The notes below the pieces were generated by a model. It searched no databases. It saw only the letters and a list, made by a program, of their open reading frames with translations, and was not told the DNA's origin. From positions 1-43,767 of the forward strand of contig JAFXCE010000065.1 of assembly GCA_017521565.1 (NCBI GenBank): a stretch of DNA of 43,767 bases, in the 5' to 3' direction. Source of the stretch: Clostridia bacterium (GTDB lineage Bacteria > Bacillota > Clostridia > Christensenellales > Aristaeellaceae). Positions 6,927 through 40,483 of the stretch are shown here, piece by piece (positions within the stretch are counted from its first letter, which is position 1; every line of letters starts with the position of its first letter). The translations under genes and the position numbers were made by a program.

Positions 6927-8177
6927 TTATATCGCAGTATGCGAAAACGCTTGTATATCAAGCATTTGCGAATGGCTTGACGTGGTTTGACCCCCGTTTT
7001 GACCCCCTGCGCTGCTTTTTATGGCGTTTTCGAGGCGTTCAGCGGCATTTTTTTCGCGCTCTGCGGTGAGGTGCGTATAGATTTGCATTGTCACCTCGCC
7101 ATCGGCATGCCCCATCCATTTTTGTGCGGTTTTGACGTCAATACCGACATCGTAGAGCATGGTGCAATAGGAGTGGCGCAGATCATGGGGACGAATGGTT
7201 ATATCCTGCCACGGCGGGAGCTTGATTTGCTCGGCTTCGATGTGGCGGCCTGCGGCGGTGAGCGCTTCATATTGTTCGATACGCTGCTTGTGTGCTTTGG
7301 TGCGACCGTACCAGCGTTTTTGACAGCCGTTATGTGTGCAGTTGAGCGCATTGATATAGCTTTCCCACGCACGAGACCAAGAGGATTCAGACATCATATG
7401 ACCATTGACGTCCTGAAGCAAAAGACCGTGAAGGCCGCGCAGTTCCTCGGCCAGATCGCCGATCAACGGCACGGTACGCTGCCCGGCTTCCGTTTTGGTG
7501 GAGACAATAACAGGCGCGCCCCGGGGGTTATACCGGACAGAATGGCGAACGGTGATCGTGCGGGCAATGAAATCAACATCGCGGTCGATATCGAGAGCAA
7601 GCGCTTCACCCCGGCGCAATCCTGCGTATAGCATGACCATTACAGCAGGCCGTATGCGGTGCTGCGTCCGATGGATCAAATCACGCTCTTCGGTGGTGAT
7701 TGCGCGGTGTGTGCCTTTCTTGCCTTTGGGCGGCTTTGCTTTGATGGTCGGATCATGCAAGATCACCCGATCCGCCAATGCAAACAAGAAAAGGCCCTTA
7801 ATCGTATCGCGCATGTCGCAAATATAAGAGTGGGACATATCTTGTGCCGTGTTGTAAAAATTCTGGATATCAATCGTGTCGACATCCTGCATGGCTCTTT
7901 CTCCGATATCTTCAAAGGCGCAAAAGCGATTGAGGATGCGGACACACTGATCATACGATGCGTCGGCGAGATGTGCCTTATATGTGGCGACCCATCGCAA
8001 AGCATATGATTTGACAGTCAGGCCTTCGGCTTTTGCGCGCATGCCTGCCTCAATTTTGCGGCGGTATTCGTCGCGTTTTTGATACGCCTCTTTTTGCGTT
8101 GCGCCGTAAAAATATCGGCCTTGATACTTACACCGATAGCGCCCGTCAGCGCGCTGGGTGAGTTTGGGGCGGGGCAC
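6927..8177 (-). CDS. int: Tyrosine-type site-specific integrase
   Basis: A 416-residue recombinase that would integrate and excise the phage at tRNA-Pro. Residues 1-~45 are the arm-binding domain (RYRCKYQGRYFYGATQKEA), ~50-145 the core-binding SAM-like domain, and ~155-380 the catalytic domain. The catalytic set is visible: R188 (AGLRRGE), K228, H331-x-x-R334 (HDLRHS), H357 (MGH) and nucleophile Y367 (IYTH). Starts at GTG with strong AAGGAGGCGAT. Its 3' end runs to the att core and carries two arm-site repeats, so the gene and site move together. Confidence 0.97.
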   Translation of the reverse strand: MPRPKLTQRADGRYRCKYQGRYFYGATQKEAYQKRDEYRRKIEAGMRAKAEGLTVKSYALRWVATYKAHLADASYDQCVRILNRFCAFEDIGERAMQDVDTIDIQNFYNTAQDMSHSYICDMRDTIKGLFLFALADRVILHDPTIKAKPPKGKKGTHRAITTEERDLIHRTQHRIRPAVMVMLYAGLRRGEALALDIDRDVDFIARTITVRHSVRYNPRGAPVIVSTKTEAGQRTVPLIGDLAEELRGLHGLLLQDVNGHMMSESSWSRAWESYINALNCTHNGCQKRWYGRTKAHKQRIEQYEALTAAGRHIEAEQIKLPPWQDITIRPHDLRHSYCTMLYDVGIDVKTAQKWMGHADGEVTMQIYTHLTAEREKNAAERLENAIKSSAGGQNGGQTTSSHSQMLDIQAFSHTAI

Positions 8178-11436: not shown

Positions 11437-11895
11437 GTGATCCACACGGCAGAAATTACTTACAAAGACCTGAAATCCGCACGGGAAAAGGCGGAACTGT
11501 ACCAATACCAGGTGGCGCATCTGCTGCACGTATCAGAGGATACGGTGTCGCGGTGGGAGCGGGGCGAAATGGCCCCGACGCCCGACCAGGTGAGCGAAAT
11601 GGAAGCGCTATACAAGGCTCCGGGCCTGTGGTACGGGTGGATGCGGTACCAATATAAATCGTTCCGCGACCGCTACCCGGAAAAGCCCGAGGGCGCGGAG
11701 CTGGCGCTATCGATGCTTGACGCTGGTTACCAATTGCAGGACATGATGAAGCGGCACGAGGACGCTTTGCGGGACGCGCTGGACGGGCGGATAGACAATG
11801 CGCGCCAGTTTGCGGAATACATCAAAGAAGCCAAGGAAGCGCACGCCGCGCTGGGCGTGATGCTGGCGAAGGCTGAGTGCAGGGAGGATGGCTGA
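11437..11895 (+). CDS. HTH protein of the early operon, unusual start
   Basis: About 150 residues. HTH at residues ~14-45 (AELYQYQVAHLLHVSEDTVS, then RWERGE), then a helical C-terminal half. Two start choices exist. GTG 11437 lies inside the ribosome site GGGAGGTGATC itself. ACG 11446, in frame, stands 8 bases after GGAGG, the normal spacing. The same arrangement occurs at 27339. It could be an excision or replication-control regulator. Confidence 0.8.
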   Translation: MIHTAEITYKDLKSAREKAELYQYQVAHLLHVSEDTVSRWERGEMAPTPDQVSEMEALYKAPGLWYGWMRYQYKSFRDRYPEKPEGAELALSMLDAGYQLQDMMKRHEDALRDALDGRIDNARQFAEYIKEAKEAHAALGVMLAKAECREDG

Positions 11896-12100
11896 AATGT
11901 ACTATCTTAAGGACATCGTAACGGGTCAATACGCGGCGCTGAAGAAGCGCCGGGGCAAGGTCAGAGTGGAGTACAGGGACAGGCCGGACAACGCGACGTT
12001 CTGGTCGGAGGTGGACATCGCCGCATACGCGCTTGACCGGCTGGAAAAATCGGGGGCCATACCCCCTATGACGCTGGCGATTGTGGGGGAGGAAATATGA
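11888..12100 (+). CDS. Hypothetical early protein
   Basis: A 70-residue protein overlapping the HTH gene by 8 bases, with ribosome site GGGAGG. Basic N-terminal half (YAALKKRRGKVRVEYRDR) and a helix DIAAYALDRLEKSG. No family recognised. It overlaps the next small gene. Confidence 0.68.
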   Translation: MAEMYYLKDIVTGQYAALKKRRGKVRVEYRDRPDNATFWSEVDIAAYALDRLEKSGAIPPMTLAIVGEEI

Positions 12101-12246
12101 TCGAGCTCAAAGCGGTCTACCATGACCGATGCGAAACGGAGACATACCCGGACGACGCGGCGCTGCATGACGTGGCGGTAAAGGCCGACGAACACAGGGC
12201 GCTGGGCGCAATCGAAATCAAGATCAAAATTGAACGGGAGGCATAA
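12097..12246 (+). CDS. Small hypothetical protein (49 aa)
   Basis: ATG 12097 overlaps the upstream stop (ATGA) behind GGGGGAGG. The short protein alternates strands and helix, ending AIEIKIKIEREA. Not recognised. Confidence 0.6.
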   Translation: MIELKAVYHDRCETETYPDDAALHDVAVKADEHRALGAIEIKIKIEREA

Positions 12247-12250
12247 GAGC

Positions 12251-12397
12251 ATGACGGCATACAGACCACGGCACAACCAGGCCGCAGCGATGCGCATCCG
12301 CCGCAGGAAGCAGGCGCGGCAGGATATCCTTTCCGGCATGGCTGCCGGGCTGATGCTCGGGCTGCTGATCGGCGCGATGTTCCTGCTCCCCGGTTGA
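12251..12397 (+). CDS. Small membrane protein (48 aa)
   Basis: ATG 12251 behind GGGAGGC. A basic N-terminus (MRIRRRKQARQD) is followed by one membrane helix (MAAGLMLGLLIGAMFLLP). Single-span phage peptide; function unknown. It is the last gene before the hairpin-rich region. Confidence 0.65.
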   Translation: MTAYRPRHNQAAAMRIRRRKQARQDILSGMAAGLMLGLLIGAMFLLPG

Positions 12398-12410
12398 GTT
12401 ACCCGCTTGA

Positions 12411-12890
12411 GGTCGGGCAAAGCCCGACTAGCAGGAGCAAATATTTATATTTGCCCTGCGTACCCAGCGCACGGCCTTGCGCCGTGTGATGGGCGACAAC
12501 AGAGGTCGGGCAAAGCCCGACTAAGCGGATGCAATGCTTGCATTGCGCCGCTGTACCCGCGACGCGCCTTTACGGCGCGGGGCGGGCGAACCCCGCCTGA
12601 AGATGGCTGGATGGCTACCAGCCGAAACGCTCCATTGCGGAGCGTCGCGGGAAGCCCTGGACCAGTTTCTCGCGTGAGTATCCTCCTCATGACGCTACAA
12701 GCGTCTGACGCTTACATACACCTCCTGTGAGCGTCGCGCGCCTCGGGTCACGCCGTGGCCATAGCGGCAAAAACCTGCTAAGGCGCGCTATCCGCCGGTT
12801 TTGCGGTCAACGGACGTCTCCCCCGTCCGGCAGGGTCAGCACCTGCAACCGGTGCCACATACACGGGCGGCAGCCCGGAAAGGAGGCACA
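12411..12890 (+). ncRNA. Hairpin-packed non-coding region with two repeated units
   Basis: No supported gene lies between 12398 and 12890. Nine hairpins follow each other: 12412-12428 (GTCGGGC-AAA-GCCCGAC), 12431-12459, 12463-12493, 12505-12521 (same as the first), 12525-12551, 12563-12579, 12581-12597, 12605-12623 and 12627-12645. The first three and the next three form two copies of a ~93-nt unit. The second stems differ in sequence but keep pairing (GCAAATA/TATTTGC against GCAATG/CATTGC, closed by GCAGG/CCTGC against GCGG/CCGC). From 12646 to 12890 smaller pairings continue. It could be a structured RNA or a set of mobile palindromes. Confidence 0.6.
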
Positions 12891-13226
12891 ATGTACCACT
12901 TAGAGAGGCTGATGAGCGTACAGCAGGCGATGCAATACATCCCGCTGGGCAAAACTAAGATGGTGGAGGTTTTCCACGACATCGGCGCCGTAACGATTGG
13001 CAAAAAGCTGATGGTAACGGAAAGGCAATTGGCGCTGTATGTGCAGCGGCATAAGACGCAGCAGGACGATGAAACGCAGCCGAAAAGAAAAAAGCCCAGG
13101 CCGAAGATCGACACGGACGGGCTGCTGAACGAATTTGGACACATACCCACACGCCGCGAAATGCGGGAAAAGGACAAAAAGAAGGGAGCAACGAGCAATG
13201 GCAAATCAGGTTCCGGCAAAAGTTGA
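12891..13226 (+). CDS. Excisionase/MerR-like HTH protein
   Basis: A 111-residue protein, start ATG 12891 behind AAAGGAGG. Residues ~8-50 (MSVQQAMQYIPLGKTKMVEV ... GKKLMVTERQLALYVQRH) match the winged HTH_17/excisionase pattern, in which a helix-turn-helix is followed by a pick-up of the K-x-x-V-T strand. The basic tail (KRKKPRPKID) suits DNA contact. It could be the excision factor for the integrase, or a small replication regulator. Confidence 0.7.
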   Translation: MYHLERLMSVQQAMQYIPLGKTKMVEVFHDIGAVTIGKKLMVTERQLALYVQRHKTQQDDETQPKRKKPRPKIDTDGLLNEFGHIPTRREMREKDKKKGATSNGKSGSGKS

Positions 13227-13617
13227 ACTTATCCTGTCGATGCGCAAACAGGGCATGACGTACAGGGTGATTGGCGAGGCGCTGCACATGTCGGGCGAAA
13301 ACGTACGGCAGACGCTGCTGCGCTACGCTGGCGACCGGACGACAAAGCCCCGGAAATATCACATGAGCGGCGAGAGGGTCAACGGCAAGGCGTTTTGCTT
13401 TGAAGGACTGGAGCAGTGGCGGAAGGCACACGAAATGAGCGTGTACCGGGTGCTGAACAATGCGGGCATAGTACCGCCTAACGGGGGTACGTACCGGTAT
13501 ATGATCGGGAAAAAATACTCGGTCGATCTGGACGATGTGAAGCGACTGCTGAACTACACGGGGCTGACTTTCTGGGAGGCGTTTGGCGATGGGACGATCG
13601 GCCGCGGTACGCGATGA
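13198..13617 (+). CDS. HTH protein, first of a paralogous pair
   Basis: A 139-residue protein, start ATG 13198 behind AAGGGAG. HTH (LSMRKQGMTYRVIGEALHMS) at residues ~13-35. The C-terminal half (YSVDLDDVKRLLNYTGLTFW) matches the end of the next protein (LTLGDIRRIIRYTGETFEQL). It overlaps the upstream and downstream genes. DNA-binding, target unknown. Confidence 0.75.
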   Translation: MANQVPAKVELILSMRKQGMTYRVIGEALHMSGENVRQTLLRYAGDRTTKPRKYHMSGERVNGKAFCFEGLEQWRKAHEMSVYRVLNNAGIVPPNGGTYRYMIGKKYSVDLDDVKRLLNYTGLTFWEAFGDGTIGRGTR

Positions 13618-25601: not shown

Positions 25602-25841
25602 ATGGCAAAAATGGCAGAAATGGCAATCGACATGTGATAAATTGATATTACGGACGCCCGGCAGGAAGCACTGCCGGGCGACTTTGTTACCCGGAAACAA
25701 TAGAGGTCGGGCAATGCCCGACTACAGGAGAGCAGGCGCGGCGCATGTGCGCTACAAGCGGGTTGGTCCGCTGGAAGGCCTGCGGGATTACCTCCCAGCT
25801 GGCGGGGGCTGGGCGGGGCGCATCGAAAAGGGAGGAATTCG
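25602..25841 (+). other. Early/late junction: hairpins, repeats, no gene
   Basis: Holds three 9-bp tandem units ATGGCARAA-like (25602-25628). A 10-bp hairpin CGCCCGGCAG / CTGCCGGGCG (25655-25680) followed by ACTTTGTT may be a weak terminator. GTCGGGC-AAT-GCCCGAC (25706-25722) is a third copy of the hairpin found twice at 12.4 kb, again with GAGG before and TA after. A GCGCATGTGCGC palindrome lies at 25741-25752. No clear late promoter was found. Confidence 0.6.
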
Positions 25842-26315
25842 ATGAACGTAATCATGAAAAAGGTTTCGGAGCTGAAACCATACGACAAAAATGCGAAAAC
25901 ACACGACAAGACGCAGATTGCCAATGTGGCGCAGTCGATCGCCGAAATGGGGTGGAAGCAGCCGCTGGTGATCGACGCTGACGGCGTGGTGATTGCGGGG
26001 CACTGCAGACTGCTGGCGGCGAAAAAGCTGCGGCAGAAGGAAGTGCCGTGCGTGGTGGCTGACGACCTGACCCCGAAACAGATTCGCAAGTACAGGATCC
26101 TCGACAACAAGCTGGCTGAATCCCCGTGGGATTTGGGCATTCTGGCGGAGGATATCGAGGGGCTGGATTTTGAGGGGTATGATGTTGATTTCGGTTTGGA
26201 TGATATAATCAACGTGGAACCGCAGGAAGGCGCGAGAGAATTTACTGAGGAGGAATTCAGTGACGAGCAATTCAAATGTGAATGTCCTCGATGTGGATTT
26301 AAATTCAACCCATAA
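25842..26315 (+). CDS. ParB/Srx-like domain protein
   Basis: A 157-residue protein behind AGGGAGG. VSELKPYDKNAKTHDKTQIA, then GHCRLLAAKKL (the GHxRxxA motif) and VVADDLTPKQIRKYRILDNK: the ParB-like nuclease fold found beside phage DNA methyltransferases. The C-terminal end CECPRCGFKFN is a zinc-like knuckle. It probably works with the following methyltransferase in protecting or marking phage DNA. The two genes overlap by 56 bases. Confidence 0.85.
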   Translation: MNVIMKKVSELKPYDKNAKTHDKTQIANVAQSIAEMGWKQPLVIDADGVVIAGHCRLLAAKKLRQKEVPCVVADDLTPKQIRKYRILDNKLAESPWDLGILAEDIEGLDFEGYDVDFGLDDIINVEPQEGAREFTEEEFSDEQFKCECPRCGFKFNP

Positions 26316-38165: not shown

Positions 38166-40483
38166 CGGACATGATTCCGGCGCTGCCGAGGCTGCTTGGC
38201 AGCTACGGCACGGGCGAAATACGGCGGCTGAACCCGCTGGAAATGTCGTTGGTAGAGGTGCTGTCGGGGATATCCTACGCGCAGATGACGCTCAGCCGGG
38301 CGGAGGGCGCAGGGATTGAGCCAGGCGCGCTGATCCGGCTGTACACGAACCAGGGCGACATGGGCGTATACCGCGTGCAGGCCGTGACGGAGGACGAGGA
38401 TACGACGGTGCTCGACCTGTCGCACGGCCTTGTTACGCTGACGGACACGGTGATTCCGCCGAAGGAAACGGAGGAGCCGGAGGATTCCGGGAGCGACGGC
38501 TCCGGGGGCGAATCCGGGGACGGCACGGAAAGCGGCGGCGCAGGAGATACAGAAGGCGGCGAAACGGGCGGCGAATCCGGGGACACCGGGGACGGAACGG
38601 AAGAAAATCCTGAAGAAAAGCCCGAGGAAAAGCCGACGGAGCCCAAGGGCGAAACAGTACCGCTGCGAGAGGCGATTCAGACGCTTTTCAACGCGCAGCC
38701 CGTTTCCTGGTGGACGCTGGGCGCGGTGGAAGTACCGGATTCCTCGCCGGTGACATGGTCGTACGACTACGACACGCTGTGGGAGAAGCTGACGGCGCTG
38801 ATGAGCAACTTCCCGGCGTACATGCTGACGTTCGACATGTCGTCGAGGCCGTGGGTGCTGAACGTGGTGCTGGCCCCGACGGCGGCGGACTGTGAGCTTC
38901 GATACAACAGGAACCTTGAAACGGCCTCGATCACATACGACAGGTCGGAGCTATGCACGCGACTGTACGTCGACGGGATCAAGGAGCCGATCGACGCGGA
39001 CACGATCGGGGTATGGGGGGTGGTCAGTCAGGCGATGACGGGCGATCCCGATTTTGACGAAGCATACTGGCGGGAGGAAGCGCGGCTATACCTGGAACGG
39101 TACAAGAATCCGGCGCTGTCGGTCACGATTGAGGCGGCGGAGCTATCGCACCTGACAGGCGAACCGCTTGACCGGCTTGTTTTGGGGCGGATGTGCCGCC
39201 TGGCGCTGCCGGACCGGGGCGCGATAGTGAATCAGCGAATCGTTGAAATGCAGTGGCGGGACGTATACGGCGACCCGGAGCGCGTGCGGATCAGCATGAG
39301 CAACGCGGTAGCGGATACGGCCTCGATCCTGTCGGCGATGCGCGCGGAATACAGGCGCAAAAGCAAGCAATCGCTGACGAAGCTGAAGGACATGTACAGC
39401 TCGATTGAGGAAATCGACGGGAAGCTGACGGCATTCGTCAACGAAGTGAGCATTGAGCTGGACGCGATGAACGCGACGATCGCGCTGAAGGCGAGCCAGA
39501 CGGCGCTGGACGAGCTTTCCGCGCGCCTTTCCGCAGCGGAAATCAAGATTGACGGCATCAATGCGACGATCGACCTGTCGGCGATCTACAAGCGGCTGGA
39601 TGACTTGGAGGACTTCCAATCGTCCGCGAGCATCCTGATCGACGGCATGAACGCCAGAATCGAACTGAAGGCGGAGCAATCCGTCGTCGACGAGCTGGGC
39701 GAGCGGATTTCAAAGGCCGAAATCCTGATCGACGGCGCAAACGCAAAGATCGAGCTCAAGGCCAGCCGGGAGGAAGTAACCGCGCTGGAAGAAAGGCTCT
39801 CGCAGGCGGAAATCGACATCGACGGCGCGAATGCGAGAATCGACCTGAAGGCAAGCCAATCTACGGTGGATGATCTGGCCGAACGCGTATCATCCGCGGA
39901 GGTCGCCATTGACGGCGCAAACGCGCGCATCGACCTGAAGGCCAATTCCTCGACGGTGAACAGCCTGAGCAACCGTGTAGCGTCCGCCGAGCTGACAATC
40001 GACGGCATGGAGGGCGAAATCTCCAGCAAGGTCAGCAAAAACGGCGTGATTTCCGCCATCAACCAGACCTCCGAGAGCGTGACGATCAGTGCGAGCAAGA
40101 TCAACCTGTCGGGGTATGTGACGGCGACGGAGTTCAACGCGCTGAAGGCTACGACGGAAAACCTGAAAGTAACACAGTCCGGTTGGGCATATGAATTTAC
40201 AACTGATGAATTAGGCGCGACAACCGGCTGGATTACAGGCCTGCATTCGACGACGGCAAACATCAACCATGCCATTGTCACAAACCTGACGTACGGCGGA
40301 CAGGTGATGGATTGGATGGAGGATATCCAGGTGTGTACGACGTCGGCAACTTACTATGCCAACACGACAAGTATTGCGTACATTGACGGCAACACGAACA
40401 CGAAAAAGACAATCGATGTCGTTACGGGCATCACAAGAGCTTCAGGGCCGAGCTATCGGACAATTTCGTACATTGGCAAATAA
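38162..40483 (+). CDS. Tail tip/receptor-binding protein (Tal-like) with linker and coiled-coil repeats
   Basis: A 773-residue protein overlapping the Dit gene by 4 bases. N-terminal ~98 residues plus ~167-400 make the gp27-like hub (SNFPAYMLTFDMSSRPW). Residues ~99-166 are an acidic Gly/Glu/Ser linker inserted in it. Residues ~423-620 are a coiled coil with ~30-residue repeats of the type IDGANARIDLKAS. The C-terminal ~100 residues are a Thr/Tyr-rich tip with lower GC in its DNA, the likely receptor contact. No peptidase motif was identified. Confidence 0.88.
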   Translation: MTDMIPALPRLLGSYGTGEIRRLNPLEMSLVEVLSGISYAQMTLSRAEGAGIEPGALIRLYTNQGDMGVYRVQAVTEDEDTTVLDLSHGLVTLTDTVIPPKETEEPEDSGSDGSGGESGDGTESGGAGDTEGGETGGESGDTGDGTEENPEEKPEEKPTEPKGETVPLREAIQTLFNAQPVSWWTLGAVEVPDSSPVTWSYDYDTLWEKLTALMSNFPAYMLTFDMSSRPWVLNVVLAPTAADCELRYNRNLETASITYDRSELCTRLYVDGIKEPIDADTIGVWGVVSQAMTGDPDFDEAYWREEARLYLERYKNPALSVTIEAAELSHLTGEPLDRLVLGRMCRLALPDRGAIVNQRIVEMQWRDVYGDPERVRISMSNAVADTASILSAMRAEYRRKSKQSLTKLKDMYSSIEEIDGKLTAFVNEVSIELDAMNATIALKASQTALDELSARLSAAEIKIDGINATIDLSAIYKRLDDLEDFQSSASILIDGMNARIELKAEQSVVDELGERISKAEILIDGANAKIELKASREEVTALEERLSQAEIDIDGANARIDLKASQSTVDDLAERVSSAEVAIDGANARIDLKANSSTVNSLSNRVASAELTIDGMEGEISSKVSKNGVISAINQTSESVTISASKINLSGYVTATEFNALKATTENLKVTQSGWAYEFTTDELGATTGWITGLHSTTANINHAIVTNLTYGGQVMDWMEDIQVCTTSATYYANTTSIAYIDGNTNTKKTIDVVTGITRASGPSYRTISYIGK

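Follow-up and report, generated by a model that had tools for sequence, protein, structure and literature searches.

Repeat units of a covarying, very probably mobile family and a likely hammerhead in the leader of a Clostridia phage operon

What are the hairpins in the gene-free gap at positions 12398–12890 of a 43,767-nt stretch of DNA from a Clostridia bacterium (the window, which is contig C99 of a draft genome of 3.08 Mb)? A sequence-only reading had seen about 490 bases without a gene, as the gap from the stop codon of the frame at 12251–12397 to the ATG at 12891 bears out. It had ventured three guesses for the hairpins: an undescribed structured RNA, an RNA-level attenuator or a family of palindromic mobile repeats.

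The window reads as a temperate phage or prophage because it carries a phage integrase gene (6927–8177, minus strand; PF00589, E 4.7e-19) together with genes for helix-turn-helix regulators, a Sak-like annealing protein, a DnaB helicase, terminase, portal, a head protein and endolysin. On the plus strand, the gap is bounded upstream by a 48-residue frame (12251–12397) with one hydrophobic stretch and a single weak Pfam match under its cut-off, and downstream by a 111-residue frame (12891–13226) whose start codon closes the structured leader. The label ‘excisionase-like’ once given to the downstream gene found no footing, as searches of Pfam (E 0.01) and PHROG (0.001) returned no family for it. 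Four pattern matches in viral loci were considered as relatives of this gene, and none was confirmed.

Two repeat units in a gene-free leader

Sequence inspection and a pattern count place identical GTCGGGC-AAA-GCCCGAC hairpins at 12412–12428 and 12505–12521, a spacing of 93, in agreement with the two units of about 93 nt that had been described here. With up to 3 mismatches allowed, this hairpin has 6 matches in the window, at 3 places on both strands, against 0.16 expected. It forms the first helix (P1) of each unit. Unit 1 (12408–12500, plus strand; 93 nt, model core 12411–12497) continues with P2 (12431–12459, with a bulged A12436) and P3 (12463–12493); unit 2 (12504–12590, plus strand), a tandem copy 93 nt downstream, continues with P2 (12524–12552) and P3 (12556–12586). 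The corrected covariance model of the family, R2, scores them at 86.0 bits (E 1.3e-15, filters off) and 71.5 bits (E 9.9e-13), respectively. A degenerate third copy lies at 25705–25783 (plus strand), upstream of a frame at 25842; P1 is retained there (GTCGGGCAATGCCCGAC) and the remainder has decayed (30.9 bits, E 4.9e-5 with the earlier model R1; 19.7 bits, E 0.019 with R2).

The second stem pairs as GCAGG-A-GCAAATA/TATTTGC-CCTGC in unit 1 and as AGCGG-A-TGCAATGC/GCATTGCG-CCGCT in unit 2. By inspection, this stem and the GC-rich third stem differ in sequence between the units and keep their pairing, as had been noted for the second. The compensating changes had been taken as a sign of selection on structure; two units alone are weak evidence for this, and the 70 diverse relatives aligned below are strong evidence. 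The region is also unusually stable in folding, with z scores of −8.1 for 12404–12590 (0 of 200 shuffles as low) and −8.4 for 12398–12892 (0 of 100). The remainder of the leader, which reaches to the start codon (12657–12890, plus strand), holds more hairpins (z −3.42, 0 of 200 shuffles as low); blastn found no relatives of it, giving short hits only, to loci judged to be chance. Among individual blastn matches, those to L005, L007, L008 and L010 look like chance.

A widespread repeat family and its sites

The first alignment (A1) comprised 40 units picked through the P1 sequence and therefore overstates P1 conservation; 90.1% of its cells are paired and 16 of its 29 pairs show changes on both sides, which none of 500 shuffles equals. 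Because these units had been chosen by P1, we turned to a covariance model (R1) for further searching and compiled another alignment (A4), reducing 169 rows by 97 (14 through filters and 83 through clustering) to 72 representatives, of which 2 were dropped by hand to leave 70. Covariation is extensive in A4. Both-side changes occur in 23 of its 26 pairs, P1 covaries as well, 94.5% of 1795 cells are paired, and the covariation score reaches 0.428; shuffles give 0.124 (0 of 500 as high) and controls with slid partners at most 0.072. Model R1 has two mis-registered pairs (21–52 and 22–51), which are correct in R2; it was used for the survey of 300 genomes, the deep genome counts and the 79 hits of the site survey given below, and in collecting the rows for A4.

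Between the helices run conserved unpaired linkers (GACTA-RCG...YGTA-GCC...GGCCGA). Three covarying helices around such a core would suit a cis-acting RNA regulator, an attenuator or riboswitch-like leader that had become repeated and widespread, as would the tandem G·A mismatches that, as read from A4, swap with Watson–Crick pairs in P1 and P2. Against a regulator, G·U pairs exceed A·C pairs weakly, at 28 versus 16 of 1727 cells with one column pair (36 G·U, 0 A·C) set aside; with an excess this weak, the data do not tell RNA from single-stranded DNA as the selected form. One sub-family has GA...AA in place of the linker pair TA...TA, A4 columns 27 and 61 changing jointly. By our own, crude gene calls, 5 of 8 GA/AA copies lie inside genes compared with 3 of 51 TA copies, a difference that is suggestive only of a tie between this sub-family and in-gene location.

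A comparison with known large phage RNAs had been proposed. At gathering score, the units match no family in Rfam, a library that includes ROOL and GOLLD, and gave just weak sub-threshold matches; in searches of the window and the collected loci, the sole match above threshold was a tRNA in L026. As identities of the units, integron attC sites, riboswitches and ToxIN-type repeats were also considered and set aside.

The sequence-only reading had also called for a covariance search for homologues with kept pairing, and these exist: R1 finds them in viral contigs and in 38 of 300 host-family genomes, spread over 15 of 50 genera. A search with the P1 hairpin alone detected 10 of the 300 genomes, and several arrays had spacings of 92–93. 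Across the order, 396 genomes were searched with R2 and 6 have matches, 5 of them from the same family as the host and 1 (G324) from another. A deep search of 12 genomes gave 146 (G272), 91 (G219), 31 (G195), 25 (G115), 20, 14, 14, 12, 12, 11, 9 and 5 matches, counts that refer to draft genomes, hang on rough E-values, derive from up to 150 scored candidates per genome and may include a few antisense echoes (5 of 79 in one set). Occurrence is uneven within the rich genus, where the R1 survey has matches in 15 genomes, from 1 (G208, G245) to at least 14 each, with none for G076, G160 and G267 among the matches listed. The P1 pattern occurs in 37 named stretches; 36 of them belong to Clostridia or Clostridiales metagenome-assembled genomes, and the titles of 26 of these point to goat, sheep or deer gut. 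The remaining one, a Paucimonas contig, is probably a chance match.

Phages are probable carriers of the family. The R1 count for the window’s own genome is nine, and eight of these were located: two in the window and six in C62 (L310/L311), a Mu-like phage contig with transposase, MuB-like protein, portal, tape measure and head genes. On C62, the six matches lie between or near late genes. The window phage and the C62 phage resemble each other only distantly, in two structural proteins. Units further occur in the viral contigs L136 and L211–L215 and, in more divergent form, in L072, and phage records gave no match to window positions 11437–13617, nor phage and plasmid records to a consensus-like unit. 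Two further loci considered as family members, L209 and L210, look like chance.

Several lines of evidence back mobile repeats, the last of the three guesses. First, copies are dispersed. We surveyed 386 kb of G272, chosen for holding copies, with gene calls from our own codon-usage script; 79 hits, less 6 (five antisense echoes in L245 and one incomplete hit), left 73, which fall into 46 sites, 38 single and 8 in arrays of 2 to 9 units. Of the 46 sites, 35 are intergenic, where 4.4 would be expected (300 random placements gave at most 11; coding fraction 0.874); 9 sites lie inside genes and 2 partly so. In 16 of the 35 intergenic sites, a co-directional start codon follows within 40 nt, against 5.05 expected (maximum 11), and in twelve of these it lies 13–21 nt away. 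This sense orientation ahead of start codons is again what a cis-acting regulator would show. Another 9 of the 35 are antisense to both neighbours, however, and the genes containing copies are unrelated to one another.

Second, units form tandem arrays, each with its own linker and period: about 92 in L248, 106 in L262 and 89 in L252. Units within an array are near-identical. Arrays probably grow through duplication of whole units. The arrays span nine units in L248 (2162–2981), at least five in L262 (1–598) and four in L252 (7905–8254).

Third, the same place in related genomes holds no unit (L279), one (L265) or two (L269). The draft genome G281 contains both a filled (L268) and the empty (L279) version of one site, which may reflect paralogues or a mixture of strains.

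Fourth, copies sit in frame inside conserved genes. Among 18 genomes of one genus, 2 have an insert in PriA, 31 residues and antisense in G272 (L255, 17114–17201) and a shortened 20 residues in G219, and the 16 others are empty. QueA carries one in 3 of 16 genomes (30 residues in G272, 30 in G257 and 29 in G195; one copy at L258, 13631–13715), with 13 empty; the count runs over 16 since 2 of the 18 genomes gave no QueA match. By inspection of few sites, the three QueA copies differ mostly in loops. Pfam alignments continue across the inserts in MiaB-like and B12-radical SAM proteins, either strand of the unit can be the coding strand, and 4 of 6 sense copies within genes share a peptide like PTSDSDC-QSPSEA.

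Fifth, unit 1 (12408–12500) is 95.7% identical over 93 nt to positions 2720–2812 of the 4,639-nt viral contig L136, which otherwise shares with the window only DNA pieces of 35 and 39 nt holding a unit end or P1 and has no match to any of 53 window proteins. A near-identical unit in two otherwise unlike phage sequences is good evidence, from sequence comparison, for transfer.

Against a regulator, then, stand copies inside genes and antisense to both neighbours, the unrelatedness of the genes concerned, arrays of up to nine units and differences in presence between relatives in PriA and QueA; we regard it as quite improbable. With copies in such places, an attenuator or a single defined non-coding RNA is unsupported as the general function. 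Some features count against the mobile reading to the extent that they would equally suit an RNA function, namely the conserved linkers and the bias towards positions just ahead of start codons; the uneven occurrence within the rich genus also counts against it. For the window itself, we expect the two units to be tolerated passengers in a phage-operon leader rather than a regulator.

No signal of target duplication was present among 55 strict single copies (mean 2.91 versus 2.76; 222 of 1000 shuffles as high). A first count had appeared significant (0 of 500 shuffles), but it included array members, and the signal was gone once these were removed; a GAGGAG repeat at the L265/L279 site is for that reason best read as a shared Shine–Dalgarno sequence. 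Imperfect direct repeats of about 18 nt lie a few bases off on both sides of the single copies at L254 (4594) and L259 (9611). The lack of target duplication, the near-identity of units within arrays and their array-specific linkers would fit inherited chromosomal spacers amplified by slippage alone, with no transposition. Dispersed single copies, sites filled in a minority of genomes and a near-identical unit in otherwise unlike phage contigs make such an origin highly improbable.

A search for the Y1/REP transposase (PF01797) found it in 7 of 16 genomes and not, among others, in G272 (146 matches; 84% complete), G195 or G237, a result that counts against the mobile reading. In the mobile-repeat reading, the units may move as a folded DNA strand through an enzyme supplied in trans.

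A hammerhead motif downstream of the units

The hairpin array is not a single design. Behind its two repeat units come a type I hammerhead motif (12592–12656, plus strand) and then 12657–12890. Two hairpins of the array are stems II and III of the hammerhead, which the earlier description lacked. The motif is identified by its pattern, descriptor scans, a minimum-energy fold and relatives in L003, L004 and L072. From one base past the unit 2 core, the order is CCCGC-CTGAAGA-T-stem II-GAAA-stem III-GTC-GCGGG: stem I (12592–12596/12647–12651) encloses CTGAAGA (12597–12603), an extra T12604, stem II (12605–12610/12618–12623), GAAA (12624–12627) and stem III (12627–12633/12639–12645). Cleavage is predicted after C12646, and GGCT in loop II (12613–12616) can pair with AGCC at 12653–12656. 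The motif thus has CUGANGA and GAAA cores, A15.1–U16.1, an NUH site and three stems with stem I open, as type I requires. The minimum-energy fold of 12588–12660 is the hammerhead three-way fold (z −2.8; 3 of 200 shuffles as low). In a window of this kind, 0.27 occurrences of the pattern by itself are expected, and 25 of 100 shuffles contain it; the stems therefore matter to the identification, and a scan of 60 simulated windows with the type I descriptor, stems included, gave 0 hits. The type II descriptor gave 4, so that a type II hit in the window near 39374 is at chance level.

Relatives in the host genus number three in L003 and one in L004, and those inspected precede a ribosome-binding site and start codon. 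In a seeded scan of 123 loci, of which 120 are viral and had been retrieved by the hammerhead pattern, 117 distinct type I motifs turned up in 79 loci, with several per contig in 22 loci; 67 of the 117 have an extra base after A9, as in the window. Among the 103 motifs with a loop II of 4–9 nt, complementarity between loop II and the 3′ flank of stem I is 3.72 versus 3.00 in shuffles (maximum 3.22 of 500); pseudoknots of this general kind are known in natural hammerheads (available text of PMC3088659). In Rfam, the window motif stays below gathering score, with a best match to Hammerhead_II in another register (12620–12687; 15.9 bits against a cut-off of 37), and none of 11 viral loci with a type I motif reached the gathering score of Rfam 15. 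That phage type I hammerheads fall under every Rfam threshold marks a gap in those models.

The hammerhead is likely the functional RNA element in this leader and would cut after C12646. It would do so in the early transcript, leaving the units in the upstream fragment.

Could the units and the hammerhead form one selected processing cassette, setting the ends and stability of mRNA pieces in the early operon? The unit 2 core stops one base ahead of stem I, and the viral contig L072 has two units and at least three hammerheads on the same strand. The units and hammerheads of L072 lie at least 1.4 kb apart, however; of the 120 viral loci with the hammerhead pattern, only L072 has a unit match (plus L031 at E 0.025); and across L136–L171, most of which are 3 kb or shorter, a hammerhead descriptor that misses forms like L004 found the window’s own copies only. 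We consider such a cassette unlikely. Very probably, the array is composite: two tandem, non-autonomous mobile units of about 93 nt, then a type I hammerhead, with the units resembling Rickettsia palindromic elements (RPEs) and not an RNA regulator.

Relation to known repeats and ribozymes

The window motif resembles prokaryotic type I hammerheads in its core, three stems, GUC site and possible pseudoknot, as far as the available text of PMC3088659 describes them, and hammerheads are linked to phages in the accessible part of PMC6155905. It differs from known hammerheads in the extra base after A9 and in its score under the Rfam gathering threshold.

REP and BIME elements with RAYT transposases are abundant, mostly intergenic palindromic repeats that occur singly and in clusters. 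By contrast, the present units have three hairpins each and also lie inside genes, and no Y1 transposase was found in G272. BOX elements are modular. MITEs are a further likeness, as small non-autonomous repeats able to fuse to genes (PMC10969869, in its available text). Unlike MITE and BOX elements, the units here have no target duplication that we could find and, by inspection of A4, no long terminal inverted repeats.

A tentative proposal is that the units constitute a new mobile-element class: a geneless 93-nt three-hairpin unit, carried from host to host by temperate and Mu-like phages, reaching about 100 or more copies in some Clostridia genomes, favouring sites just before start codons, translated in frame on either strand inside essential-type proteins (as in PriA), and with its fold perhaps kept as the substrate of an enzyme supplied in trans. 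With the covariance model, these repeats can be told apart from regulatory RNAs, with which they might be confused. Searches of the literature, including the available text of PMC8040213 and with the primary RPE papers outside their scope, gave no description of this repeat family.

The closest likeness is to RPEs, short palindromic repeats present in many copies between genes and in frame inside unrelated conserved genes, such in-frame inserts being described above all for Rickettsia (both from the available text of PMC10969869). Like RPEs, the units are dispersed in many copies in one genome (up to 146 matches) and sit in frame in conserved genes yet are absent from orthologues (present in PriA in 2 of 18 genomes and in QueA in 3 of 16). 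They differ, in a likeness drawn by description, in belonging to another phylum, in measuring 93 nt rather than about 150, in their three-helix fold with a conserved core, in forming tandem arrays and in their presence in phages. The repeat would also supply proteins, PriA and QueA among them, with inserts of 30 residues. With its recent arrays, empty sites and possible phage carriers, this second in-frame palindromic system, in gut Clostridia and their phages, would make the spread of such repeats testable.
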